From: Gammaproteobacteria bacterium
Lineage (GTDB): Bacteria; Pseudomonadota; Gammaproteobacteria; GCA-002705445; GCA-002716945
Assembly (NCBI GenBank): GCA_002716945.1
Contig: PBCF01000002.1
Span: 577,605-641,604 of the forward strand
Length of the DNA: 64,000 bases
Direction of reading: 5' to 3'
Within the stretch, counting starts at the first letter, position 1. Each line of letters starts with the position of its first letter. Position numbers and translations under genes: made by a program. A model generated the notes under the pieces. It made no database searches. It was not told where the DNA came from and was given only the letters and a program-made list of their open reading frames with translations. Positions 9,365-54,375 of this stretch are shown in pieces.

Positions 9365-10797
9365 TATAACCCTCCAAAAACTTCGATGTTATCAAATAAA
9401 CACATTGGAGTGGAATGACCTACAAACATAGTTTGATTAGGTTCGCCTTTTCCGCAATTAGAAGTTCCTAATATTTTTTGCGAATCTTTATTCCCTATCA
9501 TGGTTAAATTATGCCAAAAATTTTCGGTAACACCTCTGTAACTCGGATTTTTAACTATTCCTTTTAATTCGCCATTTTGAATTAAAGTTCCTTTTTCACA
9601 ACTAAATTGAAATTTATTTCTTTTATCATCAATAGACCATGAATTATTAGTTTCTAGTAATATTCCATCATCAATTGATGAAATCATATCTTTTTCTGAA
9701 TAATTGCCAGGTTCAATGTTGATATTGCCCATCCTGTCTATGGGAGGTCTATTCCAATTGCTTGCTCTTGAACAAGCAACATAATCCAGCCCAGTTCTTT
9801 GACCTGAAATATGACCACCAATAGGTCTAACTAGAAGTCCATCTTTGATTAAATATTCTTTGGAAGCTTCAGTTCCATCATCATCATAATTATATGTTGC
9901 TAATTGTGACTCTAAAGTAGGGTTAAAAGTAACATTTAAACATTTAGAACCATATTGATATTCTCCAAACATATCCAAAGTCACAAAGCTTGATCCAGCA
10001 TAATTTCTTTCATCACCAAGAATTCTATCTAGCTCAAGTGGATGTCCAATTGATTCATGGAGTTGAAGAATCATTTGATCGGGCGCTATTAGAGTTTTCA
10101 TATTTTTATCCGGACAATTAGGGGACTTTGCTAATTGAATAGACTCTTCAGATAGCTCTGCAGCCTTTTGATTCAGATTTATAGTATCTAAAAAATCGTA
10201 ACCTACTTGCCTTGCATGAGCATGACCACCATATGTCCTTGTTTGTATTTCTTTTTTATGAGCGGCAGAAACAACAACTTGAGGTAATAAAAATGAAATT
10301 CTTTGTCTGAAATGAGAATCATTAGTATCAATAAATAATGTCTCTATTTTTTTATATCTCAAACTTGCACCCCAGTTTGATATAGTAGACTTTGATTTGA
10401 GAATTTTATTAAGATTTCTCAAATAATCTATCTTGTCTTTAGTTGAAACTTGCATCCAATTAGTCTCTTCTTTTGTGAAATAGTTTCCTTGAACTTGCTT
10501 TATACGTTTGTAGTCAGGAAGGAATGTTGTTTTATTTTTAGTAAATTTACTCCATTCTATAGCTTCATTTATTGCCGATTTAATTCCATCCATAGTTAAA
10601 TCACTTGAAGAACCATAACCTATTCCACCTTGATTGATTATAGATACCATTATTCCATCATCTTCAGAAACTGTAACAGGTTCTACAATATTTCTGGTAA
10701 CAGATATTGTATTTACAAACTGATTAACAAATCTGAAAGAACAGTAATCTACGTCTGGCAGGAGCTGTTTTACTTGGTTTATAAAGTCTTCTTTCAT
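9364..10797 (-). CDS. tldD: TldD metalloprotease, catalytic subunit
   Basis: TldD is the zinc-bearing subunit of the TldD/TldE protease. The active-site motif HESIGH is at residues 247-252, followed by HPLELDRILGDERNYAGS. Total length is 477 residues from the ATG at 10797, near the 481 of E. coli. An in-frame GTG at 10818 would add seven residues. I prefer the ATG because MKEDFINQVKQLL aligns with the normal TldD N-terminus. It is divergent from arsS across a gap of only 34 bp. It heads the tldD-pmbA-gltX run. Confidence 0.95.
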   Translation of the reverse strand: MKEDFINQVKQLLPDVDYCSFRFVNQFVNTISVTRNIVEPVTVSEDDGIMVSIINQGGIGYGSSSDLTMDGIKSAINEAIEWSKFTKNKTTFLPDYKRIKQVQGNYFTKEETNWMQVSTKDKIDYLRNLNKILKSKSTISNWGASLRYKKIETLFIDTNDSHFRQRISFLLPQVVVSAAHKKEIQTRTYGGHAHARQVGYDFLDTINLNQKAAELSEESIQLAKSPNCPDKNMKTLIAPDQMILQLHESIGHPLELDRILGDERNYAGSSFVTLDMFGEYQYGSKCLNVTFNPTLESQLATYNYDDDGTEASKEYLIKDGLLVRPIGGHISGQRTGLDYVACSRASNWNRPPIDRMGNINIEPGNYSEKDMISSIDDGILLETNNSWSIDDKRNKFQFSCEKGTLIQNGELKGIVKNPSYRGVTENFWHNLTMIGNKDSQKILGTSNCGKGEPNQTMFVGHSTPMCLFDNIEVFGGL

Positions 10798-10831
10798 GAT
10801 AATATTAAATTGTAACACTAGAGAGTATCTA

Positions 10832-11791
10832 ATGCATGATGTTTACCAATTAATTAAAAATTCAGATTTCCCTGTTATTTTTAGGGATGAATTAAAATGT
10901 ATACAAATTAATATGGGCTACAGATGTAATCAATCATGTGTTCACTGTCATGTTAATGCTGGTCCTAATAGAAATGAAATGATGGACAGAAAAACTGTTA
11001 ATGAAATTATTAATTTTATTTCAAAAAATAATATAGACAAAATTGATATAACTGGAGGTGCTCCAGAACTAAACCCCTATTTTACATATTTAATAGAAAA
11101 ATCAAAAAAACTTGGTTGTCATGTAATAGACAGGTCAAACTTAACAGTCCTGCTAGAGCCTGGTATGAATTCATTAGTTAATTTTTTAAAAAAATATAAT
11201 GTAGAAATTATTGCATCTCTTCCGTGCTACTCATCTGAAAATGTAAATCAACAAAGAGGAAAAGGTGTTTTTGAAAAAAGTATATGCGCTTTAATAAAAC
11301 TAAATAATATAGGCTATGGAATAAACAAAAAGTTGCCGCTCAATCTTGTATACAATCCCCAAGGTGATAACTTGCCAGGTAATCAAAAATTGTTGGAGAA
11401 TCAATATAAATCATATTTATACAAAAAATATAAAATAAAGTTTAACCGCCTTTATACCATTACAAATATGCCCATATCAAGATTTGGGAGTTATTTAATA
11501 TCAAAGGGTAAATTTCATACTTATATGAATTTATTGAAAAATACTTCAAACACAGATCATCTAAATAATGTTATGTGTAAAACACTTATAAGTATTGATT
11601 ATAAAGGATATGTCTATGACTGCGATTTTAATCAAATGCTGAATATGGGGATTTCTGGGAGAAAAAAATTACATATATCAAAATTATCAATCCAGGATTT
11701 ATATAAAAAAAGTATCAAGACCGGTGAACATTGTTATGGATGTATTGCGGGCAATGGGAGCAGCTGCGAAGGTAACTTAAAAAATGATTAG
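10832..11791 (+). CDS. arsS: ArsS-type radical SAM protein (arsenosugar biosynthesis)
   Basis: The 319-residue protein has the radical SAM cluster CNQSCVHC (Cys32, 36, 39), then DITGGAPEL and VIDRSNLTVL. Further ArsS signatures are ASLPCYSSENV, LNLVYNPQGDNLP and a C-terminal HCYGCIAGNGSSCEG, probably a second Fe-S site (DUF3641). ArsS is proposed to transfer a 5'-deoxyadenosyl group to dimethylarsenite on the way to arsenosugars. The ATG at 10832 is chosen because GAGAG at 10821-10825 gives good spacing; an upstream ATG at 10796 would run into tldD. The next two genes are the family's usual glycosyltransferase partners. Confidence 0.88.
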   Translation: MHDVYQLIKNSDFPVIFRDELKCIQINMGYRCNQSCVHCHVNAGPNRNEMMDRKTVNEIINFISKNNIDKIDITGGAPELNPYFTYLIEKSKKLGCHVIDRSNLTVLLEPGMNSLVNFLKKYNVEIIASLPCYSSENVNQQRGKGVFEKSICALIKLNNIGYGINKKLPLNLVYNPQGDNLPGNQKLLENQYKSYLYKKYKIKFNRLYTITNMPISRFGSYLISKGKFHTYMNLLKNTSNTDHLNNVMCKTLISIDYKGYVYDCDFNQMLNMGISGRKKLHISKLSIQDLYKKSIKTGEHCYGCIAGNGSSCEGNLKND

Positions 11792-12449
11792 CATAGTTAT
11801 ACCTACATACAACGAAGAACAATATATTGTTAAAACTCTCAATAATTTAAATCAACTTAAAAAAGACTTAGAAATTGAAATAATTTTAGTTGACGGAAAT
11901 AGTTCTGATAATACAGTCAAAATTTCAAAAAATTTAGTAGATAAAGTTATCATGAGCAAAAAAGGAAGATATATACAACAGAATTTAGGTGCACAAAGCG
12001 CAAATGGTTCAATAATTCTATTTTTACATGCTGATACTATCGTAACTAAATCTGGATTAGATATTCTTATTGAAAAAAAGAATAATTTTATGTGGGGCTT
12101 TTTTAAAATATCTTTCGATACAAAAAACTTTAATTTTTTTATATTAAAAAAATGTATTAATTTTAGATCTATAATTTTCAAATATGGAACAGGAGATCAA
12201 TGTATTTTTGTCAATAAAGATTTATTTAATGAAATTGGTGGCTTCCCATCAATTGCTTTAATGGAAGATGTAGCACTCTGTCGTATTCTTAAAAAAAAAT
12301 ATAATCCACTAATTATAAATGAAGTAGTAAGTACATCTACCAGAAAGTGGAGCAATGAAGGATTTATAAAAACTATATTAAAAATGAGATTACTAAGACT
12401 TATGTATTATCTTGGCTTTAGTCCATCATTTTTAGAAAAATACTACTAA
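11784..12449 (+). CDS. Family 2 glycosyltransferase, TIGR04283 type
   Basis: This 221-residue GT2 enzyme has the nucleotide-binding start SIVIPTYNEEQYIVKTL, VDGNSSDNT, a DXD-like HADT and an acceptor-side GDQCIFVNKDLF with GGFPSIALMEDVAL. The last segment and the short length match the TIGR04283 family that accompanies arsS. It overlaps arsS by eight bases, so the two are coupled. Its sugar donor and acceptor are not known experimentally; addition of or to the ribose moiety of an arsenosugar is the family proposal. Confidence 0.82.
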   Translation: MISIVIPTYNEEQYIVKTLNNLNQLKKDLEIEIILVDGNSSDNTVKISKNLVDKVIMSKKGRYIQQNLGAQSANGSIILFLHADTIVTKSGLDILIEKKNNFMWGFFKISFDTKNFNFFILKKCINFRSIIFKYGTGDQCIFVNKDLFNEIGGFPSIALMEDVALCRILKKKYNPLIINEVVSTSTRKWSNEGFIKTILKMRLLRLMYYLGFSPSFLEKYY

Positions 12450-12450
12450 C

Positions 12451-13035
12451 ATGAATTCTATCAATATATTCTCCAAATGTCCTTATAGTTCAAAGTGTAA
12501 AACAAGACTTAGAAATTTATTAAATAAAGATGAAAGGAGTTTTTTATCTAAGTATATGTTAATAAATATACTCGATGAAGTAACAAACACAAATCACTCT
12601 ATAATAAATCTTTGGATATATCCTCATTTCAATCATGTATTTTTTACCGAAATTAAAAAAAAATATAAAGTTAATCTGTATAGGCAGGAAGGTAGTAATT
12701 TATCTGAAAGATTGAATCATTGCCTCTATAACCAATCATCTATCCATCAAAAAGTAATTATTTTAGGATCAGATATCCCAACCTTAAATCACAGAATTAT
12801 TGCTGATGCTGTCAAATCATTAAATTACAAAAAATATGTAATAGGACCAAGTAAAGATGGTGGTTTTTATTTATTGGGTAGCACAATACATCGTAATAAT
12901 ATATTTAATACATTTCATACAGAAAAAATTAGATTTACAAATATCATAAATACTATCACTACGAATAACCATGATTATATTTTATTAGAAAAATTAAAAG
13001 ATATTGATACAAAAGAAGATTTACTTACTATTTAA
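12451..13035 (+). CDS. DUF2064/TIGR04282-type nucleotidyl/glycosyltransferase
   Basis: The 194-residue protein shows the MobA/CofC-like fold of DUF2064: IFSKCPYSSKCKTRL near the N-terminus, then LSERLNHC, VIILGSDIPTL with the Asp pair, and IGPSKDGGFYLLG. TIGR04282 proteins of this kind are adjacent to TIGR04283 enzymes and ArsS in many genomes. It starts one base after the GT2 stop, completing a three-gene operon. It converges on and overlaps the WaaE-like gene by 15 bases. Biochemical role unproven. Confidence 0.82.
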   Translation: MNSINIFSKCPYSSKCKTRLRNLLNKDERSFLSKYMLINILDEVTNTNHSIINLWIYPHFNHVFFTEIKKKYKVNLYRQEGSNLSERLNHCLYNQSSIHQKVIILGSDIPTLNHRIIADAVKSLNYKKYVIGPSKDGGFYLLGSTIHRNNIFNTFHTEKIRFTNIINTITTNNHDYILLEKLKDIDTKEDLLTI

Positions 13036-30470: not shown

Positions 30471-30474
30471 AATT

Positions 30475-30478
30475 GGAG
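30475..30478 (+). promoter_or_regulatory. Ribosome binding site that fixes the queD start
   Basis: GGAG, continued as GGAGAAAGG, lies seven bases before the ATA at 30486 and is one of the better Shine-Dalgarno matches in the window. It is poorly placed for the first in-frame ATG at 30561, which is 82 bases further on. It therefore supports initiation at ATA. Confidence 0.6.
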
Positions 30479-30485
30479 AAAGGCT

Positions 30486-30854
30486 ATATATACACTCACT
30501 ATACATACTGAATTTTGTTCTGCCCATATATTACATGGCCACCAAGGTGATTGTAAAAGAATGCATGGACATAATTGGAAAGTTGAAGTTGAAGTTTCTG
30601 GAAATAAACTAGATAATGTGGGAATGGTTATAGATTTTAAAGAAATAAAAAAATCAACTAATGAAATAGCTAAAAAGCTTGATCATCAATATTTGAATGA
30701 TTTAGAGCCTTTTAAGACTAAAAACCCAACTGCTGAAAACATCTCTGAATATTTTTATACACAACTATCAAAAATATTTAATACAAATGATACTAAAATT
30801 AAATCAGTAAAACTATGGGAAACTGATAGAGCGTCTGTAACATATACGGAGTAA
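30486..30854 (+). CDS. queD: 6-carboxytetrahydropterin synthase, apparent AUA start
   Basis: QueD converts dihydroneopterin triphosphate to 6-carboxytetrahydropterin for queuosine or other 7-deazapurines. Reading from ATA at 30486 gives (M)[20 protein letters not shown], matching the family start MYTLT. The zinc ligands His14, His27 and His29 (HGHNW) and catalytic Cys23 are then all present, and the length is the usual 122. The first in-frame ATG at 30561 would remove His14 and Cys23. No ATG, GTG or TTG lies in frame between the dxs stop and 30561. The C-terminal [15 protein letters not shown] and [12 protein letters not shown] are canonical. Confidence 0.85.
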
Positions 30855-30859
30855 TTATT

Positions 30860-31687
30860 ATGTCAACAACTAAAAAAAACATCAAAGTAATAACACAAAA
30901 AAATAATCTGCCTGATACACAAGGCTTGATTGATACCAGAAATCTACCAATTAATAAAGTTGGTATAAAAGATATATTACATCCAATGATAATTAAGCAA
31001 AGATCAGGTAAAAAACAGTCTACTATTGCTAAATTCAATATGTATGTCAATTTACCACACGATTTCAAAGGAACACATATGTCAAGATTTGTTCATATAT
31101 TAAATAACAATGAAGAACAAATTACTGTTAAATCATTCAAAAAAATGATAGATGAGATGCTAATAATTTTAGAGGCTGAATCTGGTCATATAGAGATGTC
31201 TTTTCCGTATTTTGTTAATAAAACTGCACCAGTTTCCAAAGTAAAAAGTTTATTGGATTATGAAGTCACGTTTATTGGAGAAATAAAAGATGGTCTTTCT
31301 AATATGAAAATTAAAGTGCTTGTTCCTGTAACTAGTTTATGTCCATGTTCAAAGAAAATATCTCAATATGGAGCGCATAATCAAAGATCGCATGTTACTG
31401 TGACAGCTACAATTAAGGACTTTATATGGATTGAAGAAATTATTGATGTAATTGAGAAAGAGGCTTCGTCTGAATTATATGGTCTGCTTAAAAGACCAGA
31501 TGAAAAATACGTTACTGAATTAGCGTACGACAATCCAAAATTTGTAGAAGATATGGTAAGGGATATAGCTGTTCACTTCAATGAAGATGATAGGATCACT
31601 GAATATGTTGTAGAGTCAGAAAATTTTGAATCGATACACAATCACTCTGCGTATGCTCAAATCCACAATGTTAAAGATAAAGTCTAA
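30860..31687 (+). CDS. folE2: GTP cyclohydrolase IB
   Basis: FolE2 (GCYH-IB) turns GTP into dihydroneopterin triphosphate, the precursor of folate and of the QueD product. The 275-residue protein shows [30 protein letters not shown], the conserved Cys in [19 protein letters not shown] and [15 protein letters not shown]. This type can use metals other than zinc, unlike FolE. GGAG stands eight bases before the ATG. It follows queD by five bases, so substrate and consumer are made together. Confidence 0.96.
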
Positions 31688-34858: not shown

Positions 34859-36112
34859 ATGAAGGCTTCAATTTTCCCTATATTCACTCTTAAAGATGAT
34901 CCGTCTGATGCAGAAATCTTAAGTCATAAGTTAATGATAAAGGCTGGATTAATTAGAAAACTCAATGCTGGGCTATATACTTGGCTTCCTTTGGGGATGA
35001 AACTAGTTTCTAAAATTTCGAAAATCATTATAGAGGAAATGAATAATATTGGTTCTATGGAAATTTTAATGCCCTCTATACAACCTGCTGATTTATGGAA
35101 AGAGTCTGAAAGATGGGATCAATACGGTCCTGAGCTTTTGAGAATTCAAGACAGACATGAGAGGGATTTTTGTTTTGGTCCAACATTTGAAGAAGTCATA
35201 ACCGACATAATAAGAAAAGAAATAAATAGTTATAAACAATTACCTTTAAACCTTTTTCAAATATCTACAAAATTTAGAGATGAAATTAGACCAAGGTTCG
35301 GCGTTATCAGAGCTAGAGAATTTATAATGAAAGATGCATATTCTTTTCATTCTAATCAAGAGTGTTTAAATGTAACTTATGAAAAATATAAATCCGCTTA
35401 CATAAATATATTTAATAGGCTTGGTCTCGATTTTAGAATAGTAGAAGCTGATAGCGGTAATATTGGAGGTAATGAATCCCATGAATTTCATGTTATAGCG
35501 GAAACTGGTGAAGATGATTTGCTTTTAGATGATTCTATGGTAGGTATGAATGTTGAAATAGCTAAAAGAAAATATGGACATGACAATATAGATGATATTT
35601 TAAAAGAAAAAAATTTAAAACATGTTAAAGGAATCGAGGTTGGACACATCTTCAAATTAGGTGATAAATATTCTTCGAAAATGAAAGCTATGATTAATAC
35701 TAAAGAATCCCAAAATATAAATATATTAATGGGATGTTATGGAATTGGTGTTACAAGAATTATAGCTGCAGCCATTGAGCAAAATAGTTCAAATGATGGG
35801 ATTATATGGCCTGAAGCATTAGAGCCATTTAAAGCAGTCATAGCTGCAATAGATGGTAATAAAAATTCTGAAATTAAAAAATATAGTGAAGAAATTTATC
35901 AAATGATTTCTAAAGATAATAATCTTGATATATTACTAGATGACAGAGATTTAAGGTTAGGTAACAAAATCAATGATTATGAACTTATTGGGATAAAAAA
36001 AATACTAATAATTGGTAAAGATGAAACTACCAATAAGACTATTACTTTAAAAATAAATAATGATAAAAAATTGATCCCTATTAACGAGCTTTTATCTTAT
36101 TTTTCGGATTAA
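34859..36112 (+). CDS. proS: Prolyl-tRNA synthetase lacking the INS editing domain
   Basis: This class II synthetase charges tRNA-Pro. Motif 2 is FRDEIRPRFGVIRAREF (139-155), with MKDAYSFH after it, and motif 3 is GCYGIGVTRIIAAAIEQ. The E. coli enzyme is about 570 residues; this is 417. The deletion lies between SHEFHV (208-212) and VGHIFKLG (261-268), where only about 50 residues replace the roughly 200-residue INS domain that edits Ala-tRNA-Pro. The catalytic and anticodon-binding parts are complete, so the gene is functional. This short form is known in alphaproteobacteria. Confidence 0.95.
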   Translation: MKASIFPIFTLKDDPSDAEILSHKLMIKAGLIRKLNAGLYTWLPLGMKLVSKISKIIIEEMNNIGSMEILMPSIQPADLWKESERWDQYGPELLRIQDRHERDFCFGPTFEEVITDIIRKEINSYKQLPLNLFQISTKFRDEIRPRFGVIRAREFIMKDAYSFHSNQECLNVTYEKYKSAYINIFNRLGLDFRIVEADSGNIGGNESHEFHVIAETGEDDLLLDDSMVGMNVEIAKRKYGHDNIDDILKEKNLKHVKGIEVGHIFKLGDKYSSKMKAMINTKESQNINILMGCYGIGVTRIIAAAIEQNSSNDGIIWPEALEPFKAVIAAIDGNKNSEIKKYSEEIYQMISKDNNLDILLDDRDLRLGNKINDYELIGIKKILIIGKDETTNKTITLKINNDKKLIPINELLSYFSD

Positions 36113-47157: not shown

Positions 47158-47400
47158 TTATTGTAAATTATTGAAAGTTAAATTTTGACTGAAAAATCTG
47201 GCTAAAACTCCACATATATAAAATATTAAAATCAAGTAAATAGGTCCTAGCGTTCCCATTTCACCAAATAAGTACACAATTGATGGAACTAGACTATAAT
47301 TAGAAAAATATTGATATGTGAAATGATGAAATATTACTATAGGTATTAGAATCAAAGCCCCTATAATAATGTTTCTAAAAATATTTTTAATAACAAACAT
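47158..47400 (-). CDS. Small membrane protein, possibly DUF502-like fragment
   Basis: The 80-residue protein has two membrane segments (IIIGALILIPIVIFHHFTY; GPIYLILIFYICGVLARFF). Its pattern resembles the first part of DUF502 proteins, which are about 200 residues, and stops where the family continues. It may be a shortened member or an unrelated small protein. It starts 10 bases from the divergent RibD-type gene and its stop abuts hisI. No upstream partner on its strand. Confidence 0.55.
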   Translation of the reverse strand: MFVIKNIFRNIIIGALILIPIVIFHHFTYQYFSNYSLVPSIVYLFGEMGTLGPIYLILIFYICGVLARFFSQNLTFNNLQ

Positions 47401-47410
47401 TTTAATCTAT

Positions 47411-48268
47411 ATGAAATTAAGTATAACAAAAAATCAAGCTTGGTCACTAATTTTAGCAATTAAGTCTATATATGATATAAAAAATAATAAAAAAACACAG
47501 ACTTTCTATAGAAAAGTATCAAATAAAAAATTATCCCTAGTTTATGATTTTAATAAACACAGGATTATAAAAAGGAATTTCAATACAAATGATGAAGTAG
47601 ATGAATTATTTGACATCTATTTACCAATAGTTTTGAATAAGAAAAAAACACCGTATTTTATTGGACATCTAGCTCAAACGCTTGATGGGTTCATAGCAAC
47701 AACAACTGGTGAATCTAAATACATTAGTGATAAAAAAAACTTAGAACATATACATAGATTAAGAGCAATAGCTGATATCATAGTTATTGGATCACAAACT
47801 ATTTTATTAGATAACCCAAAGCTTACTACAAGACTAGTTGAAGGTACAAATCCAATTAAAGTCATTTTAGATCCAAATAATAAACTCATAAATAAAGCAC
47901 ATAAATATAAATGTATGAATAACAAAAGTATTTTATTATGTAGTAAACCTGGTAATGATAAAGTAAATTTTTATACGTTATCTATGAAAAATAATCAATT
48001 CGTTTCAGAAGATTTATTGAATATTTTCAAAAAACTCAATAAAAAGATTGTTTATGTTGAGGGTGGAGGTAAAACAATATCTTTTTTTTATAAAAATAAA
48101 TTTTTAGATAGAATGCATTTATGTGTTTCACCATCTATTCTTGGAAAAGGAAAATCAAGTTTTATAATAGACAAAAGATCTACTATAAATTTCTTTAGAA
48201 ATTTAAATGTAAAATTTTCTAAAATGGGGTCTGATATGTTGTGTGATATTAAACTCTCGATTTTTTAA
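47411..48268 (+). CDS. RibD C-terminal (reductase) domain protein
   Basis: The 285-residue protein has a DHFR-like RibD reductase domain from about residue 78: FIGHLAQTLDGFIATTTGES, HIHRLRAIADIIVIGSQTIL, DNPKLTTRLVEGTNPIKVIL and the VEGGGKTISFFY motif. In RibD the domain reduces a ribosylaminouracil with NADPH. Here the deaminase domain is absent and an unrelated N-terminal region of about 75 residues replaces it. No riboflavin genes are near. The neighbours make reduction of a pterin or similar heterocycle more likely. The ATG at 47411 is used because an upstream start would overlap the divergent gene. Confidence 0.85.
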   Translation: MKLSITKNQAWSLILAIKSIYDIKNNKKTQTFYRKVSNKKLSLVYDFNKHRIIKRNFNTNDEVDELFDIYLPIVLNKKKTPYFIGHLAQTLDGFIATTTGESKYISDKKNLEHIHRLRAIADIIVIGSQTILLDNPKLTTRLVEGTNPIKVILDPNNKLINKAHKYKCMNNKSILLCSKPGNDKVNFYTLSMKNNQFVSEDLLNIFKKLNKKIVYVEGGGKTISFFYKNKFLDRMHLCVSPSILGKGKSSFIIDKRSTINFFRNLNVKFSKMGSDMLCDIKLSIF

Positions 48269-49151
48269 ATGATAAGAAAATTAAAAACAGCCCGGGGATA
48301 GAACAAATTAAATTTAGTAATCCATAGATGATAGATACACTGATACTAGCACTTGCTGAAAGTCCAAGTAAAAAAGATACTAAAAGCGCAGTACCTTCTC
48401 TTACACCCCATCCTCCAATACTTATAGGTAAAGTCATTGAAAATAAAATAATTGGTGAAAATACAAAAAAAGCAAAGTAGTCTATTGTTAAATTGAGTGA
48501 TAATGCGGAAATAATATAGATAAGAATATACGTGATGACAACTAAAAATGAATAAAAAATATGATTCCAGAATATGGGACCAGAAAATATTAGATAGAAG
48601 TTTTTACCCATGATATTGTTAGAAATAAAGTTTTTAATTCTTTTCCCAAAAAGTATTTTTAATATTACAACAGAAAAAAAAACTAATAAAAATAGATACA
48701 TAAATGCTGTATATTTTTCATTAATAAAAAAATATATCGTTAAAGATATAATAAAAGTTATAAATAAGACTACTTGACCTGAAAGCCTTTCAAAAAATAC
48801 AGACTGGAATGATTTACCTAGCTCAAAAAAAGCTTTTTTTTCAGAACTATGATAGATTCTATAAATATCACCCACGACCCCACCAGGAAGTATATTATTT
48901 AGAAAGCTAGATATGTAATAAAATTTAAGAGAATATGAAAATGATATATTCAAATTTGAGAATCTAGATATGTATGCCCACCTATAAGCAGAAATGATAT
49001 ATTGGAAAATACTTAATAGGATAATCAATAATAAATATTTATACTCAATTAATTGAATAATTTTCAAAAAGTTTTTTCCATGATCTTTAAGAACTAAATA
49101 AAGTAAAAAAATAGATATAAAATATTTAAGAATGTTTAAAAATGTTTTCAT
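48249..49151 (-). CDS. UPF0104/lysylphosphatidylglycerol synthase-type membrane protein
   Basis: The 300-residue protein has about eight membrane spans and the family motifs YRWAYISRFSNLNISFSYSL, YYISSFLNNILPGGVVGDIY and LPISIGGWGVREGTALLVSF. This is the flippase-like transmembrane domain of MprF without its catalytic domain. Such lone proteins are suggested to move lipids or lipid-linked compounds. It overlaps the methyltransferase gene start region by four bases and converges with the RibD-type gene (20-base overlap). Confidence 0.85.
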   Translation of the reverse strand: MKTFLNILKYFISIFLLYLVLKDHGKNFLKIIQLIEYKYLLLIILLSIFQYIISAYRWAYISRFSNLNISFSYSLKFYYISSFLNNILPGGVVGDIYRIYHSSEKKAFFELGKSFQSVFFERLSGQVVLFITFIISLTIYFFINEKYTAFMYLFLLVFFSVVILKILFGKRIKNFISNNIMGKNFYLIFSGPIFWNHIFYSFLVVITYILIYIISALSLNLTIDYFAFFVFSPIILFSMTLPISIGGWGVREGTALLVSFLLGLSASASISVSIIYGLLNLICSIPGLFLIFLSFKKSRV

Positions 49152-50020
49152 TTCTTTATTATAAAATCATCATGTCCAACTATCAGTTTTGATGATTTAT
49201 TCTGTATGGATTTTAATCTAGAATGATACCATGATTCTAAAATGTCTATATTAATGTCATTTCTATTCTTCATTACACTATAAACAATTTGAAGAAATGA
49301 TTTTTGAAAATTAGTTGACCTGAGATCAGAAGATTTGATTCTCCACGTAGAATCAGCACTCTCTATTTTATAGTATTTTTTTTCAATTAATTGAGTTAAA
49401 TATTTTTTAAAATTACATCCCAATGCTGGACCAAAACCTTTATCTGTTTGCATATCTTTGATAAATATTTTGCTGATATATTTGTCATGAATATTTGTAG
49501 GATGCCATTGGATTTTCCCATTAAAACATAATGTAAATAATATTACTTTTTCAGAATTAAGATTTGATAATATTTTTCTAGTGATAGATTTAGATAATAA
49601 ATCAGAAACTGCAGAAAAACTTACAACATCAAAATTGTCTAATTTATCAATATAATCTAAAATATTATTATTCTTAATAAGAATATTGATACTTTCTTGA
49701 TCTTTATAGATTAATTTAAATTTATTTAAATATTTATTTCCTATAATTTTATAACTATTATTAAGTTTCTTTTTTAAAATATTATATATATGTTTCGTTA
49801 AAGCTTTATCGTGATCAATTAAATGTACATTTTTAAAGAAAACTTTATTTGATAAGCACCACCTTAAAAAAGATCCTGTTCCACATCCAAGATCCAGCAT
49901 TGATTTTTTTTTATTTAATATAATCAGCTTTTCATAGATAAATTTATTTCTAGAAGTGTTATCAAAAAACTCTCTGTCTTCGATCCATTTTAAAGTAAAT
50001 GTATTATTTTTTAATAGCAT
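49148..50020 (-). CDS. SAM-dependent methyltransferase
   Basis: The 290-residue class I methyltransferase has motif I MLDLGCGTGSFLRW (about 37-50), the acidic residue in HLIDHDKALTKHI and a motif IV-like FDVVSFSAVSDLL. The C-terminal region past residue 160 is not familiar. It is translated with the flippase-like gene downstream (four-base overlap) and the GT4 gene upstream (17-base overlap). Its target is unknown; position suggests a sugar or pterin intermediate. Confidence 0.8.
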   Translation of the reverse strand: MLLKNNTFTLKWIEDREFFDNTSRNKFIYEKLIILNKKKSMLDLGCGTGSFLRWCLSNKVFFKNVHLIDHDKALTKHIYNILKKKLNNSYKIIGNKYLNKFKLIYKDQESINILIKNNNILDYIDKLDNFDVVSFSAVSDLLSKSITRKILSNLNSEKVILFTLCFNGKIQWHPTNIHDKYISKIFIKDMQTDKGFGPALGCNFKKYLTQLIEKKYYKIESADSTWRIKSSDLRSTNFQKSFLQIVYSVMKNRNDINIDILESWYHSRLKSIQNKSSKLIVGHDDFIIKK

Positions 50021-51008
50021 ATAGAAATTTTCTTGCTGAATTCTTCCATGTGAATTGTTCTCTTGAGTATGAAGTTTTCATCTTATTTTTAGAATTTAGA
50101 TTGATAGAAATACTTTTGGCAAATTCATTAACATTGCCAGGAGAAATATAATCAACATTTTGGCTTTTCAATGTATCTCTTAGAACTGGTAAATCAGATG
50201 TAATTACTTTCAGTCCAAATATAGCTGACTCTAATAAAGCTATACCAAAACCTTCAAAATAAGTTGGCGAAACAAAAATTTTAGATTTTTTCATATATGA
50301 GATTAATTTTTTTTGTTTTAATGTTCCTAAGAATTGAATTTTATCTCCTAAATTATATTCACATATTTTCTTCTTAAGAGATGAGAAATATTTTTCATCT
50401 ACATTATAGTTCCCTATTATAAAAAGCTTCCAATTGCCTGGAATTTTAGACATAGCCTCTATCAAAACATCGTATCCTTTTCTTTCTATTATATTTCCTA
50501 TGCATATTACATTATTTTGATTTTTTTTATGCTTTTGTTTAAAGAATATATTGTCTATGCCCGGATTAACTGTAAAAATTTTTTTACGATTGCTAAGGAA
50601 TTTTTTTGTTTGTTTTTCAATATAACTACTAACAACAATTAGTTTATGGGAATGACTATATGTAATTCTTTCAGCAAAATAATTATTAATTAAAATCATG
50701 GGATTGTTTGCATTTTCTTGTGACGTTGGATGGTGTATAAGAAAGATAATTTCAAATTTTTTATTAAGAATAGGTATAACATTTTTCATAAAAGGTGCTA
50801 ATAAGGCATCTATACAAATAATACTATTATCAGGAATATTAAATACTTTGAGTAAAAGTTTTAACTTATTATGTTTTTTGTATTCATACGGTATAACATT
50901 TACTTTGAACATTTTCTTTTTTAATTCAGATACTATTTTAAAATCATACTTAGTGCCACCAGTAATAATATCTTTGAACACGGGAATAACAAAAAAGAAA
51001 TTTTTCAT
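50004..51008 (-). CDS. Family 4 glycosyltransferase
   Basis: This 334-residue GT-B enzyme has FFFVIPVFKDIITGGTKYDF at the N-terminus, a VCIGNIIERKGYDVLIEAM-like donor-lobe start (VICIGNIIERKGYDVLIEAM) and the YFEGFGIALLESAIFGLKVI motif with E-x7-E. It is therefore a nucleotide-sugar transferase. It lies two bases before the PTPS-like gene in the transcription order and overlaps the methyltransferase gene. It is separate from the LPS block by more than 30 kb. Confidence 0.85.
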   Translation of the reverse strand: MKNFFFVIPVFKDIITGGTKYDFKIVSELKKKMFKVNVIPYEYKKHNKLKLLLKVFNIPDNSIICIDALLAPFMKNVIPILNKKFEIIFLIHHPTSQENANNPMILINNYFAERITYSHSHKLIVVSSYIEKQTKKFLSNRKKIFTVNPGIDNIFFKQKHKKNQNNVICIGNIIERKGYDVLIEAMSKIPGNWKLFIIGNYNVDEKYFSSLKKKICEYNLGDKIQFLGTLKQKKLISYMKKSKIFVSPTYFEGFGIALLESAIFGLKVITSDLPVLRDTLKSQNVDYISPGNVNEFAKSISINLNSKNKMKTSYSREQFTWKNSARKFLYAIKK

Positions 51009-51010
51009 TA

Positions 51011-51403
51011 TTAAAATTTTTTAGTATATGACGCTGATGCGATATGTGATTCATTTAATATTGCTTTTATCGAAATTATATTAGCAATATTATTTTCTAA
51101 CTTATTTAAATGATTAGTAAATTCATCTACAATAACTTTTGCCATAAATTCTGTAGTAGTGAGTATATTTTTAAATTCTTCAATTTCATCTAAATTTTTA
51201 TAATTATATTTAGACAAAACTTCTTTCAAAATATTTGTTGCTTTTTCAATATCAATAACAACATTCTTATCATTTATATTGTCTGATGAAATTATTAAAT
51301 CAATTATATAAGTTACTCCATGTACATTTTGAGCTTTTCCAAAATATTGGTCTTTTAAGCTATGTGCTATAAACAAATAATCTCTTACTTTAACTTCAAA
51401 CAT
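51011..51403 (-). CDS. Divergent 6-pyruvoyl-tetrahydropterin synthase-like protein
   Basis: This 130-residue T-fold protein begins EVKVRDYLFIAHSLKDQYFG and continues KAQNVHGVTYIID. Position 14 has the first zinc His, His28 the second, but the third is Val30 (HGVTY instead of HGHxY/W), and the catalytic Cys of QueD is absent. From memory, similar HGxTY proteins exist in alphaproteobacteria in comparable clusters, so this is a distinct family, not a decayed QueD. A full-length normal queD lies at 30.5 kb. It is the second gene of a leftward run headed by the dehydrogenase. Confidence 0.83.
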   Translation of the reverse strand: MFEVKVRDYLFIAHSLKDQYFGKAQNVHGVTYIIDLIISSDNINDKNVVIDIEKATNILKEVLSKYNYKNLDEIEEFKNILTTTEFMAKVIVDEFTNHLNKLENNIANIISIKAILNESHIASASYTKKF

Positions 51404-51404
51404 A

Positions 51405-52382
51405 CTATTTATTATAATTTACAACCTTACAAAAAAAATTTTTATTTTTTGAATTTTTAAAGAAATTAGGTAATTTGTGGAATTTAATTTCATTTTTATC
51501 TATGAGATAATCTAATTTTTTATTATTTAATAAATTTATCGCGAAATCTCTTCTTGTTTTATTCGTCCAATTTTTTATTCTATTTTTTGAGATTTTGGAA
51601 ACTTGAGAAAAAATAATATTCAATCTCTTAGACAGATAATGTTCACCAAAATTGATTCTTGATTGATTTGTTCCATACCAACTTAAAATACAAATTGTTG
51701 CTTCATTTTCAGTGAATTTTCCTAATTTGTTGATAATTTTTGAATCTCCCGAACATTCATAGATGAAATTAGCCCGCATAGTCTTACTTAAAGATGTATC
51801 AAAATTTAAATCGAATAAATTAGCAATATTTTTCTTCTTCTTGTCTTTATCAATTATAACCACATCAACTCCAATTATTGAATTCAAAAGATATGCCATT
51901 AATATACCAACAATACCTGCTCCTATGACTACGCATTTGTCGCCTGAAGTTGGCAATGTATCCCATAATGCATTAATTGCAGTTTCCATGTTTGCTGTTA
52001 ATAAAGTTCTTTTCAATGGTATTTTTCTAGGAATCAAAGATACTTCACTTTCATTAATTGTGAATAAATTTTGATGAGGATATAGAGTAAATACATTTTT
52101 TCCTATATCTTTAGTTTCACCATCTATAATCTTACCTATATTTAAATATCCATATTTAACATCCGAACCAAAATCGCCTACCTGATATGGGCATCTCATA
52201 AGTTTCTTTTCACTTTTTGGAACTTTCCCGGCATAAACAATTTGTTCAGTACCATAACTAATTCCACTAAAAATAGTTTTAATTAAAACTTCACTTTTTA
52301 TAGGGCCACTAATTTGTTCTTTTTTTATATAACTTCTATTTTTTTTATTAATCCAAAATGATTCAACATTTATCAAACTCAT
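51405..52382 (-). CDS. Medium-chain dehydrogenase/reductase without catalytic Cys
   Basis: The 325-residue MDR protein has the nucleotide-binding VVIGAGIVGILMAYLLNSII around residue 150. At the position of the zinc-binding cysteine it reads SGISYGTEQ, as in BchC-like and other members that lack the usual catalytic Cys. A family link to BchC, a bacteriochlorophyll dehydrogenase, is possible, but no photosynthesis gene is present. It heads the leftward run dehydrogenase-PTPS-GT4-methyltransferase-flippase and is divergent from the CDP-alcohol phosphatidyltransferase gene over 35 bp. Confidence 0.82.
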   Translation of the reverse strand: MSLINVESFWINKKNRSYIKKEQISGPIKSEVLIKTIFSGISYGTEQIVYAGKVPKSEKKLMRCPYQVGDFGSDVKYGYLNIGKIIDGETKDIGKNVFTLYPHQNLFTINESEVSLIPRKIPLKRTLLTANMETAINALWDTLPTSGDKCVVIGAGIVGILMAYLLNSIIGVDVVIIDKDKKKKNIANLFDLNFDTSLSKTMRANFIYECSGDSKIINKLGKFTENEATICILSWYGTNQSRINFGEHYLSKRLNIIFSQVSKISKNRIKNWTNKTRRDFAINLLNNKKLDYLIDKNEIKFHKLPNFFKNSKNKNFFCKVVNYNK

Positions 52383-52417
52383 ATCATTATTTCCCTGTTA
52401 GTTATATTATATCTTGT

Positions 52418-53122
52418 ATGAAAATAATTCTATTTCAAGCAATATTTTTAGGTTACTTATATTTAACCTTAATGACATTGATATTTTTCTATAATACAAA
52501 ATATATTGATGCATTGTTAATGAATTCATTAATATACTTCATTATTTCATTCATTTTGTTCTTTATATTTTTAAAAATGAGAGAAAAAAGATTCTCTTAT
52601 GCTTGCATAATAACTTTCTCTAGAATGATTATTAATATAATTATATTTTCCCTGATTCTATTCTATGAAGAAATTTCTCTTGGTTATTTAATTGTAGTTT
52701 TAGCCTTAATCTCTCTTTTTCTTGATGGTTTAGACGGTTATTTGTCCAAATTATTCAATGAATCATCGAAATTTGGATCTGTATTTGATATGGAAACTGA
52801 TACGTTATTAATGTTAGTTTTAAGCTTATCTTTATATATGAATTTTAATAGTCATATATTTATCTTAATCATCCCCTTCTATAGATATTTATTTGTTTTT
52901 ATGCAAAAAAAAATTACTTTTCTTTCTAAGGATTTATCTGAAAGTTTCCTACGAAAATTCATCTGTGCCACAGTCACTCTTATGTTGATTTTATGCCATA
53001 TACCAGGTACCACTATTAATATCATTACTTATACTATTAATTTTGCAATTTTTCTAATTACATTTTCTTTCGCTAGAGATATAATTTGGTTATATAAAAA
53101 CAAAAATAATGGAAATATATGA
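52418..53122 (+). CDS. CDP-alcohol phosphatidyltransferase-family protein
   Basis: The 234-residue membrane protein has the family motif in the form DGLDGYLSK-x8-G-x3-D-x3-D (FLDGLDGYLSK, then FGSVFDMETD). All Asp and Gly residues needed for metal and CDP binding are present, while the common AR is replaced by SK. About six membrane spans surround it. These enzymes transfer a phosphoalcohol from CDP to an acceptor, as in phospholipid head-group synthesis. The ATG at 52418 is used; an upstream ATG (52358) would overlap the dehydrogenase gene. It is followed by yceI with an ATGA overlap. Confidence 0.85.
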   Translation: MKIILFQAIFLGYLYLTLMTLIFFYNTKYIDALLMNSLIYFIISFILFFIFLKMREKRFSYACIITFSRMIINIIIFSLILFYEEISLGYLIVVLALISLFLDGLDGYLSKLFNESSKFGSVFDMETDTLLMLVLSLSLYMNFNSHIFILIIPFYRYLFVFMQKKITFLSKDLSESFLRKFICATVTLMLILCHIPGTTINIITYTINFAIFLITFSFARDIIWLYKNKNNGNI

Positions 53123-53706
53123 ATATGAAAAAATTTTTATTAATCTACTTTTTTGTATTTTCTAGCTATACATATAGTGAAGAATATCAATATGAAATTG
53201 ATCAAAGCCATTTTGCTTTAGGTTTTTTGGTAGAGCATGCTGGTTATGCAAAAACATTAGGGATGTTTAGAGATATTTCAGGATCTTTCGTTCATGATGA
53301 ATCAAATAATAAAGTTAAAAACATAAAAATAATAGTTCAAACATCTAGTGTTTTTACTAATCATGAAAAAAGAGATGCACATCTGCGCAGCCCAGATTTT
53401 CTAAACTCTGATGAATATCCAGAAATGATTTTTACTGCTGACGAAATAAAAATTCAGAATAAAAATGCTTCTGTTGATGGTAATTTGACTTTGCTAGGTA
53501 TTACGAAACCAATAAAATTAGAAGCCAAAATAAATAAAATTGCAGAATATCCATTTAGAAGTGGGTTGTCAAAACCAATGGTTATGGGAGTATCAGCTAG
53601 AGGTAGTTTTAAGCGTTCTGACTTTGGTATGATGTATGCAATAAAAAAAGATTTAGTTGGTGACAACATAGATTTAATAATAGAATTTGAGGCTAGAAGA
53701 AATTAA
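53119..53706 (+). CDS. YceI-family periplasmic lipid-binding protein
   Basis: The 195-residue protein has a signal peptide (MNMKKFLLIYFFVFSSYTYS) and the YceI barrel: EIDQSHFALGFLVEHAGYAK, HEKRDAHLRSPDFLNSDEYP, GNLTLLGITKPI and MGVSARGSFKRSDFGM. YceI relatives bind polyisoprenoids. The start codon overlaps the stop of the CDP-alcohol phosphatidyltransferase gene as ATGA, which suggests translational coupling and a shared pathway. Confidence 0.92.
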   Translation: MNMKKFLLIYFFVFSSYTYSEEYQYEIDQSHFALGFLVEHAGYAKTLGMFRDISGSFVHDESNNKVKNIKIIVQTSSVFTNHEKRDAHLRSPDFLNSDEYPEMIFTADEIKIQNKNASVDGNLTLLGITKPIKLEAKINKIAEYPFRSGLSKPMVMGVSARGSFKRSDFGMMYAIKKDLVGDNIDLIIEFEARRN

Positions 53707-54375
53707 TTGAGCGACAAGATTAATCAAATTGATTTTCAAGACTTGAGAAATTATATCGATCGTATTGGTTATAAAGAATCTAACATTTTACAAGAGTTAA
53801 GAGCAGAGACAAAAAAAATTAGTGATTTATCAATCATGCAAATAGGAGCGATGCAAGGTTCTCTACTTCAATTTTTATGTAAGATTGGTAATTTCAAGAA
53901 ATGTATAGAAGTAGGAGTTTTCACTGGTTATAGTTCAATATGTATAGCGTCTAGTATAACCGAAGATGGCATTTTATATGCACTTGATAATAGTGAAGAA
54001 TATACAAATATTGCTAAAAAATATTGGGAGAGAGCGGGAGTAAATCATAAAATTAAATTAATGTTAGATGACGGCGTTTTATCGTTCAAAAAGCTCTTAG
54101 AAGAGGAACAAGAAAGTACATTTGATTTCATATTTATTGATGCAGATAAATCAAACTATCAACAATATTATGAATCTTCTTTGAAATTAATAAAACAGGG
54201 TGGTTTGATTGCTATTGACAATACAATATGGAAAGGCAGAGTTTTTGATAATAACGATCAATCAAGTGGTACTGATTCTATAAGAAAGTTAAATGATTTT
54301 ATATATGAAGATTCTAGAGTAGATCACTGTCTACTGACTATTTATGATGGAATGACATTATGCATAAAAAAATAG
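53707..54375 (+). CDS. CCoAMT-like O-methyltransferase, TTG start
   Basis: The 222-residue protein is a class I methyltransferase of the caffeoyl-CoA/catechol type. It has CIEVGVFTGYSSICIAS, ILYALDNSEEY, FDFIFIDADKSNYQQYYE and GGLIAIDNTIWKGRV. The only suitable start is TTG at 53707, directly after the yceI stop; the first internal ATG would delete about 40 residues of normal N-terminus. It overlaps the TrhO gene by 16 bases. Substrate unknown. Confidence 0.87.
   Translation: MSDKINQIDFQDLRNYIDRIGYKESNILQELRAETKKISDLSIMQIGAMQGSLLQFLCKIGNFKKCIEVGVFTGYSSICIASSITEDGILYALDNSEEYTNIAKKYWERAGVNHKIKLMLDDGVLSFKKLLEEEQESTFDFIFIDADKSNYQQYYESSLKLIKQGGLIAIDNTIWKGRVFDNNDQSSGTDSIRKLNDFIYEDSRVDHCLLTIYDGMTLCIKK

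Follow-up and report, generated by a model that had tools for sequence, protein, structure and literature searches.

We analysed a stretch of 64,000 nucleotides from a Gammaproteobacteria bacterium (assembly GCA_002716945.1, contig PBCF01000002.1; the whole stretch is called the window below) for a cluster of genes in which a stand-alone RibD-type reductase, a T-fold protein of the PTPS-IV group and an MDR-superfamily dehydrogenase lie beside transferase and membrane genes (Table 1). Family assignments were made with Pfam and NCBIfam. A preliminary description of this sequence had listed eight genes and proposed a pathway, and all eight were observed at 47369-53706 with the families, overlaps and gaps that it gave. 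Five of them form one leftward unit with overlaps of 4 and 17 bases and gaps of 2 and 1 bases. The proposal of a pathway was also upheld, as the genes belong to one conserved pathway-like unit in which functions for a GTP-derived pyrimidine or pteridine precursor, glycosyl and methyl transfer, and lipid-type functions recur across phyla.

Table 1. Genes of the cluster and the adjoining methyltransferase, with positions in the window
Feature	Position	Strand	Evidence
RibD-C-type reductase, stand-alone	47369-48268	+	Pfam RibD_C 1.4e-29; deaminase domain absent
Flippase-like membrane protein, UPF0104 / LPG_synthase_TM	48249-49151	-	PF03706 1.8e-36
Class I S-adenosylmethionine-dependent methyltransferase	49148-50020	-	weak Pfam methyltransferase matches
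GT4 glycosyltransferase	50004-51008	-	PF00534 (Glycos_transf_1) 5.5e-32
PTPS-IV T-fold protein	51011-51403	-	Pfam PTPS 5e-20
MDR-superfamily dehydrogenase, BchC-distant	51405-52382	-	bchC model 3.5e-12; without Zn ligands
CDP-alcohol phosphatidyltransferase (CDP-OH)	52358-53122 (open reading frame; likely start 52418)	+	PF01066 9.5e-12
YceI-family protein, periplasmic lipid/isoprenoid-binding type	53119-53706	+	PF04264 1e-37
Catechol-O-methyltransferase-like enzyme (OMT)	53707-54375	+	PF01596 1.5e-66; zero gap after YceI

The host genome measures 1.09 Mb, the GC content of the window is 24-31%, and the nearest named relatives among the matches listed in the PTPS scan were uncultured marine Gammaproteobacteria. 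The probable start of CDP-OH was placed at 52418 because the genome-wide hidden Markov model (HMM) match begins there. The OMT gene was syntenic in relatives of the same family, no enzyme of this type was found in the clusters of other taxa, and its membership in the pathway is doubtful.

Conservation and spread of the cluster

Of 24 genomes sampled from the same family, 17 carried the cluster with unchanged gene order, among them all ten that were at least 90% complete; completeness of the seven genomes without it ranged from 68 to 89%. The flanks were conserved as well: HisI, MOSC, DMT, MoeB-like and MoaA genes border the cluster at one end, and OMT, TrhO and CcmI genes at the opposite end. 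A search for co-occurrence, on which the preliminary description had staked its proposal, showed that the strong matches to PTPS (E < 1e-30) and those to MDR fall in the identical 32 of 398 Pseudomonadota genomes, with the two genes adjoining, an agreement with a probability of about 1e-47 under independence if the kinship of the genomes is ignored. The proposal thus withstood the refuting condition set for it. CDP-OH was observed in 24 of the 398 genomes, 18 of which were among these 32.

A wider scan gave at least 588 PTPS relatives among 84,980 species genomes. The best 80 loci came from Marinobacter, Kushneria, Salinicola, Vreelandella, Chromohalobacter, Wenzhouxiangella, Variovorax, Thalassobaculum and alphaproteobacterium BAL199, among others, and also from Saprospiraceae, Actinobacteria, Acidobacteria, Gemmatimonadetes and Myxococcales, and plasmid records contributed further loci from Rhizobium, Agrobacterium, Methylosinus, Thiodictyon, Microbacterium and Streptomyces. 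The cluster is shared by Proteobacteria, Bacteroidota, Actinobacteria, Acidobacteria and Myxococcota, and haloarchaea have a reduced version of it. Iterated HMMs applied to 79 loci identified PTPS (78 loci), GT4 (71), MDR (69), RibD (61), the GTP cyclohydrolase II RibA (27) and a creatininase-family protein (19), together with the methyltransferase in 45 loci and in nine more as a fusion. The other genes counted were CDP-OH (47), the flippase (34), YceI (23), a sulfatase/lipoteichoic acid (LTA)-synthase-like protein (20), an MdoH-like protein (12), FkbM (12) and cytochrome b561 (5). These counts are mostly lower bounds, with contigs often ending within the cluster; they ignore kinship, and that for GT4 takes in unspecific GT4s. 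Same-strand neighbours were MDR-PTPS and PTPS-GT4 (62 loci each), GT4-methyltransferase (40) and methyltransferase-flippase (20), with median gaps of 15 bases for the first pair and -1 base for each of the other three.

Among the relatives we observed fusions and REPLACEMENTS, comprising three fusion types plus the exchange of RibA for archaeal GTP cyclohydrolase IIa. RibA was fused to the RibD-type reductase in a Mycobacterium metagenome-assembled genome (locus L122). Nine Marinobacter/Vreelandella loci have GT4 and the methyltransferase as a single fused gene, and three actinobacterial loci have CDP-OH fused to a sulfatase/LTA-synthase-like domain. GTP cyclohydrolase IIa is unrelated to RibA and likewise opens GTP, yielding a formylated diaminopyrimidine. 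It stands as a non-orthologous replacement of RibA beside MDR in two haloarchaea: Haloarcula halophila has the gene row CDP-OH, GTP cyclohydrolase IIa, MDR, PTPS and methyltransferase, and in Natrarchaeobaculum the cyclohydrolase adjoins MDR. On Haloarcula marismortui pHMA411 (L136, 10946-11348) the unannotated PTPS-like frame that lies between MDR and GT4 seems to be interrupted, and for this reason the H. halophila copy was used for the haloarchaeal PTPS.

The families of GT4, the methyltransferase and the flippase are common in envelope loci, and the window might on that account hold ordinary envelope-polysaccharide or lipopolysaccharide genes that share a small genome by chance with unrelated riboflavin and queuosine paralogues. 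The exact co-occurrence of PTPS and MDR, the order kept over several phyla and the gene fusions refute a chance grouping, to which we assign a negligible probability. The gene group is a real pathway, and it is not unique to this window.

Enzyme families of the core

The T-fold protein of the window belongs to PTPS-IV of COG0720, and its nearest solved chain is SCO6650 (3d7j, E 8e-43). Its AlphaFold2 model (predicted local distance difference test score, pLDDT, of 92.7) had a template modelling score of 0.95 to 3d7j as against about 0.75 to E. coli QueD. The FGPAQ motif was strongly conserved in 74 members (F21 98%, G22 100%, P23 95%, A24 98%, Q25 95%) and reads FGKAQ in the window. Where QueD has its nucleophilic Cys and its third Zn-binding His, 97-98% of these members have Ala24 and Ala30 (Val30 in the window), with His14, His28, Asp51 and Glu118 retained, the last in 98%. 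The haloarchaeal PTPS has HSHHY in the region of the second and third His and also lacks the Cys. Because Glu118 and two His are kept and the Cys and one His are lost, the residue pattern indicates that PTPS-IV retains the pterin pocket and has lost QueD chemistry.

A network study of 2017 placed PTPS-IV in a node of 561 sequences beside PF00925 and PF01872 and assigned the FGPAQ motif, and the part of the paper that describes this node gives no function (PMC5445326). The same neighbourhood was observed here, with RibD in 61 and RibA in 27 of the 79 loci; the window has RibD without RibA. A role in coenzyme F420 synthesis has been ascribed to PTPS-IV in a 2016 review, which gives no data and is the one point in favour of this role (PMC5041015). 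CofH, however, exceeded its cut-off in none of the 32 PTPS-IV genomes (pieces in broken frames in genome G265 reached 208 bits against a cut-off of 374), and no F420 genes stood out among the conserved neighbours found. The absence of CofH contradicts this role for Pseudomonadota, and overall we consider it very improbable.

The cluster reductase is the second RibD_C copy of the genome. A longer RibD (369-amino-acid frame) lies at C4:289101, and this other RibD_C copy adjoins a RibBX gene (C4:289-291 kb). Most cluster reductases carry an N-terminal extension of about 90 residues (47369-47640 (+) in the window) with no Pfam match, and Pfam likewise gave no deaminase match for the window enzyme.

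For the MDR protein the best-scoring HMM was the NCBIfam equivalog bchC, at 46.1 bits against a cut-off of 291. Neither a Pfam ADH_N match nor the GHE Zn-ligand motif nor a conserved Cys was found in it, and its conserved motifs are SxxSxGTE and PHQ. The nearest folds to its AlphaFold2 model (pLDDT 90.7) were alcohol, polyol and ketose dehydrogenases, among them sorbitol, xylitol and L-idonate dehydrogenases and TarJ, a likeness that fits the oxidation of a ribityl hydroxyl by a putative polyol-type enzyme. The family is tight, with members at 8e-92 or better and the next Pseudomonadota match at 6e-39.

All 33 cluster RibAs retain the Zn cysteines and conserved arginines. The equivalent of E. 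coli Tyr105, a residue that deformylation requires, is Tyr in 32 of them, and Met only in the Streptomyces copy, which has a creatininase gene adjoining. The S. coelicolor paralogue SCO6655, with the same Met, yields a formylated compound, and in archaea the creatininase-family enzyme ArfB strips the formyl group. We considered whether creatininase strictly accompanies the Met form of GTP cyclohydrolase II, which leaves the formyl group in place; as a general rule this is ruled out, Streptomyces being the single Met case. The evidence from RibA, archaeal GTP cyclohydrolase IIa and creatininase agrees, and the gene content therefore makes a GTP-derived 2,5-diaminopyrimidine the likely starting material.

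Proposed route, product and alternatives

We lean, by a modest degree, towards a cluster whose product is a small molecule of pteridine type, built from GTP, glycosylated and methylated, and probably joined to a membrane lipid or exported with one. From the gene content we infer the reactions, their order and the product as follows. GTP cyclohydrolase II would open GTP to 2,5-diamino-6-ribosylamino-4(3H)-pyrimidinone 5'-phosphate, possibly by way of a formylated intermediate and a creatininase-family deformylase in haloarchaea and Streptomyces, and the lone RibD-type reductase would convert the ribosyl to a ribityl chain. The polyol-type MDR enzyme may then oxidise one ribityl hydroxyl, most simply at C2', and the new ketone could close a ring with the 5-amino group, aided by PTPS-IV, which keeps the Glu and lacks the Cys chemistry of QueD and 6-pyruvoyl-tetrahydropterin synthase. 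The product would be a dihydropterin with a polyol side chain, for which GTP cyclohydrolase I is not required. The methyltransferase and GT4 would decorate this dihydropterin, CDP-OH would add a phosphatidyl group to a hydroxyl, the flippase-like protein would bring the product across to the outer leaflet, and in the periplasm it would be handled by YceI, whose place cytochrome b561 or the LTA-synthase-like enzyme may take in other taxa.

The lipid side of this route draws on several gene families. The genome holds three CDP-alcohol transferases. The cluster copy, a third one dedicated to the pathway, scores lowest against Pfam and retains the active-site aspartates; its family keeps the motif DGx2[AS][RK]x8Gx3Dx3D with D123, G124, D126, G127, G140, D144 and D148 (S-K for A-R in the window). 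The distance to PTPS was no more than 4 kb for CDP-OH in 39 loci of several phyla, for the flippase in 32 of its 34 loci, and for YceI in 23 of the 79 loci, from Gamma-, Beta- and Alphaproteobacteria. A site at the membrane and in the periplasm is indicated by the proteins of flippase-like, YceI, cytochrome b561, sulfatase/LTA-synthase-like and MdoH-like type.

Several considerations weigh against the proposed route. The 2'-hydroxyl is a proposal that rests on chemistry, and we know of no metabolite or enzyme activity for the cluster. Creatininase genes also adjoin Tyr-bearing RibAs, which should not require a deformylase. Both RibA and creatininase are absent from the cluster in the window, and the only GTP-cyclohydrolase-II domain of the genome is in a RibBX-type protein (C4:290964-291425, L167) that lacks all three Zn cysteines. 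On the lipid side, CDP-OH is missing from 14 of the 32 PTPS/MDR genomes, five genomes of family f129 hold strong CDP-OH relatives and neither PTPS nor MDR, the pteridine core stands without lipid genes in Rhodobacteraceae SC52, and in G378 it lies on a separate contig. In one f129 genome (L150, 738-9267) CDP-OH, sulfatase, flippase, GT4 and FkbM genes are close together and PTPS-IV and MDR are absent.

These last observations suit a core of RibA, RibD, MDR, PTPS-IV, methyltransferase and GT4 whose product would be a methylated pteridine glycoside, either soluble or secreted, with CDP-OH, flippase and YceI serving a neighbouring glycolipid function that is often co-located. Pterin glycosides are known from cyanobacteria and green sulfur bacteria, and CDP-OH accompanies the core in 18 of the 32 genomes. 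However, CDP-OH is found close to PTPS in 39 loci of several phyla, a haloarchaeon has it beside the core, and in 20 loci the flippase gene comes straight after that for the methyltransferase. We regard a soluble glycoside as a lesser, though appreciable, possibility. Because the lipid side is modular, with CDP-OH present without the core in f129 and the core alone elsewhere, we put lipid attachment itself at about even chances; on this linkage the preliminary description went further than the evidence does.

Alternatively, the head group might not be a pterin at all. It would then be the 2,5-diamino-ribitylaminopyrimidine in its reduced form, or else a derivative of lumazine or deazapurine type, and PTPS-IV would be a protein for binding or tautomerisation. 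The loss of the Cys and one Zn ligand in PTPS-IV would suit such a product, and GTP cyclohydrolase II products feed both toxoflavin and riboflavin. Against this, nearly every PTPS-IV member retains Glu118 and the T-fold pocket, and the recurrent neighbours included no recognisable deaminase, lumazine synthase or QueE/QueC. We consider a non-pterin product improbable.

Returning to the pteridine lipid, we tentatively suggest, as a bolder and less likely reading, an unrecorded class of membrane lipids in several phyla and some haloarchaea, with a glycosylated, methylated pteridine head group whose pterin ring would be made by a new route through GTP cyclohydrolase II, reductase, dehydrogenase and PTPS-IV, which might serve as a periplasmic redox or light-absorbing carrier with YceI or cytochrome b561.

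The source of the precursor in this genome was examined further. The Zn cysteines were also absent from all five aligned RibBX relatives (L168-L172), and no canonical RibA was found in the genome by Pfam search. As the only GTP-cyclohydrolase-II domain is this Cys-less RibBX, riboflavin synthesis and the cluster pathway would share another source of the diaminopyrimidine, or a gene was missed. The preliminary description had looked to FolE2 as a possible supplier, a role that was not supported. FolE2 (30860-31687 (+)), the sole type-I GTP cyclohydrolase found in the genome, directly follows a canonical QueD (CKRMHGH, 30471-30857 (+)) and for that reason is probably not the feeder of the cluster; a cyclohydrolase is encoded within related clusters themselves, as GTP cyclohydrolase II or as the archaeal IIa. 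The QueD frame has no ATG, GTG or TTG near its expected N-terminus in the list of open reading frames and may use an unusual start.

Two further features were observed elsewhere in the window. An arsenosugar-type set lies in a row at 10796-13035 (+), comprising an ArsS radical SAM protein (429 bits), a TIGR04283 glycosyltransferase (235 bits, above cut-off) and a TIGR04282 protein (126 bits, just below cut-off). The proline--tRNA ligase at 34859-36112 (+) has 417 residues where the models have 559-568, and its match falls into two pieces.

Comparison with known systems

The pathway is real and widespread, and the neighbourhood of PTPS-IV and RibD has been known since 2017. In the network study PF00925 was called FolE2, whereas in the loci analysed here it is GTP cyclohydrolase II (RibA), and its description of the node leaves the MDR, GT4, methyltransferase, CDP-OH, flippase, YceI, creatininase and fusions unmentioned (PMC5445326). 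A literature search, with subscription journals mostly outside it, returned no description of the cluster, of pterin lipids, of pterin glycoside clusters or of the function of SCO6650. If the proposed route is true, the PTPS-IV enzymes (hundreds of genes, mostly annotated as queuosine enzymes) and the solved SCO6650 would gain a pathway. There would also be a second route to a pterin-type ring, one that starts from the riboflavin branch rather than from GTP cyclohydrolase I, and the route may lead to a lipid whose head group is redox-active. The genes are few and occur on plasmids and in organisms that can be cultured (Marinobacter, Kushneria, Salinicola, Variovorax, Methylosinus trichosporium OB3b and Haloarcula).

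With QueD and 6-pyruvoyl-tetrahydropterin synthase, PTPS-IV has in common the T-fold, two of the three Zn histidines and the pterin-anchoring Glu, but it lacks the CxxxHGH motif of QueD through the Cys-to-Ala and His-to-Ala replacements, and a canonical QueD is encoded separately in the genome. The reductase shares the RibD_C domain with the riboflavin-pathway reductases (the RibD C-terminal domain and the archaeal ArfC type), which are its nearest solved relatives, and differs in standing alone, with its own N-terminal extension, no deaminase and another RibD elsewhere in the genome. Although BchC provides the best-scoring model for the MDR enzyme, the score falls far below the BchC cut-off; among its nearest folds, TarJ is a ribulose-5-phosphate reductase. 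Sulfatase/LTA-synthase-like proteins, the MdoH-like GT2, CDP-OH and GT4 recur in relatives of the cluster, recalling LTA and osmoregulated periplasmic glucan systems, but only CDP-OH and GT4 of these are present in the window cluster. Toxoflavin (toxA-E) and similar azapteridine clusters, which to our knowledge contain no PTPS, MDR, CDP-OH or flippase and are set apart here by description and not by sequence, employ GTP cyclohydrolase II, a RibD homologue and a methyltransferase in a secondary pathway, as is seen here.

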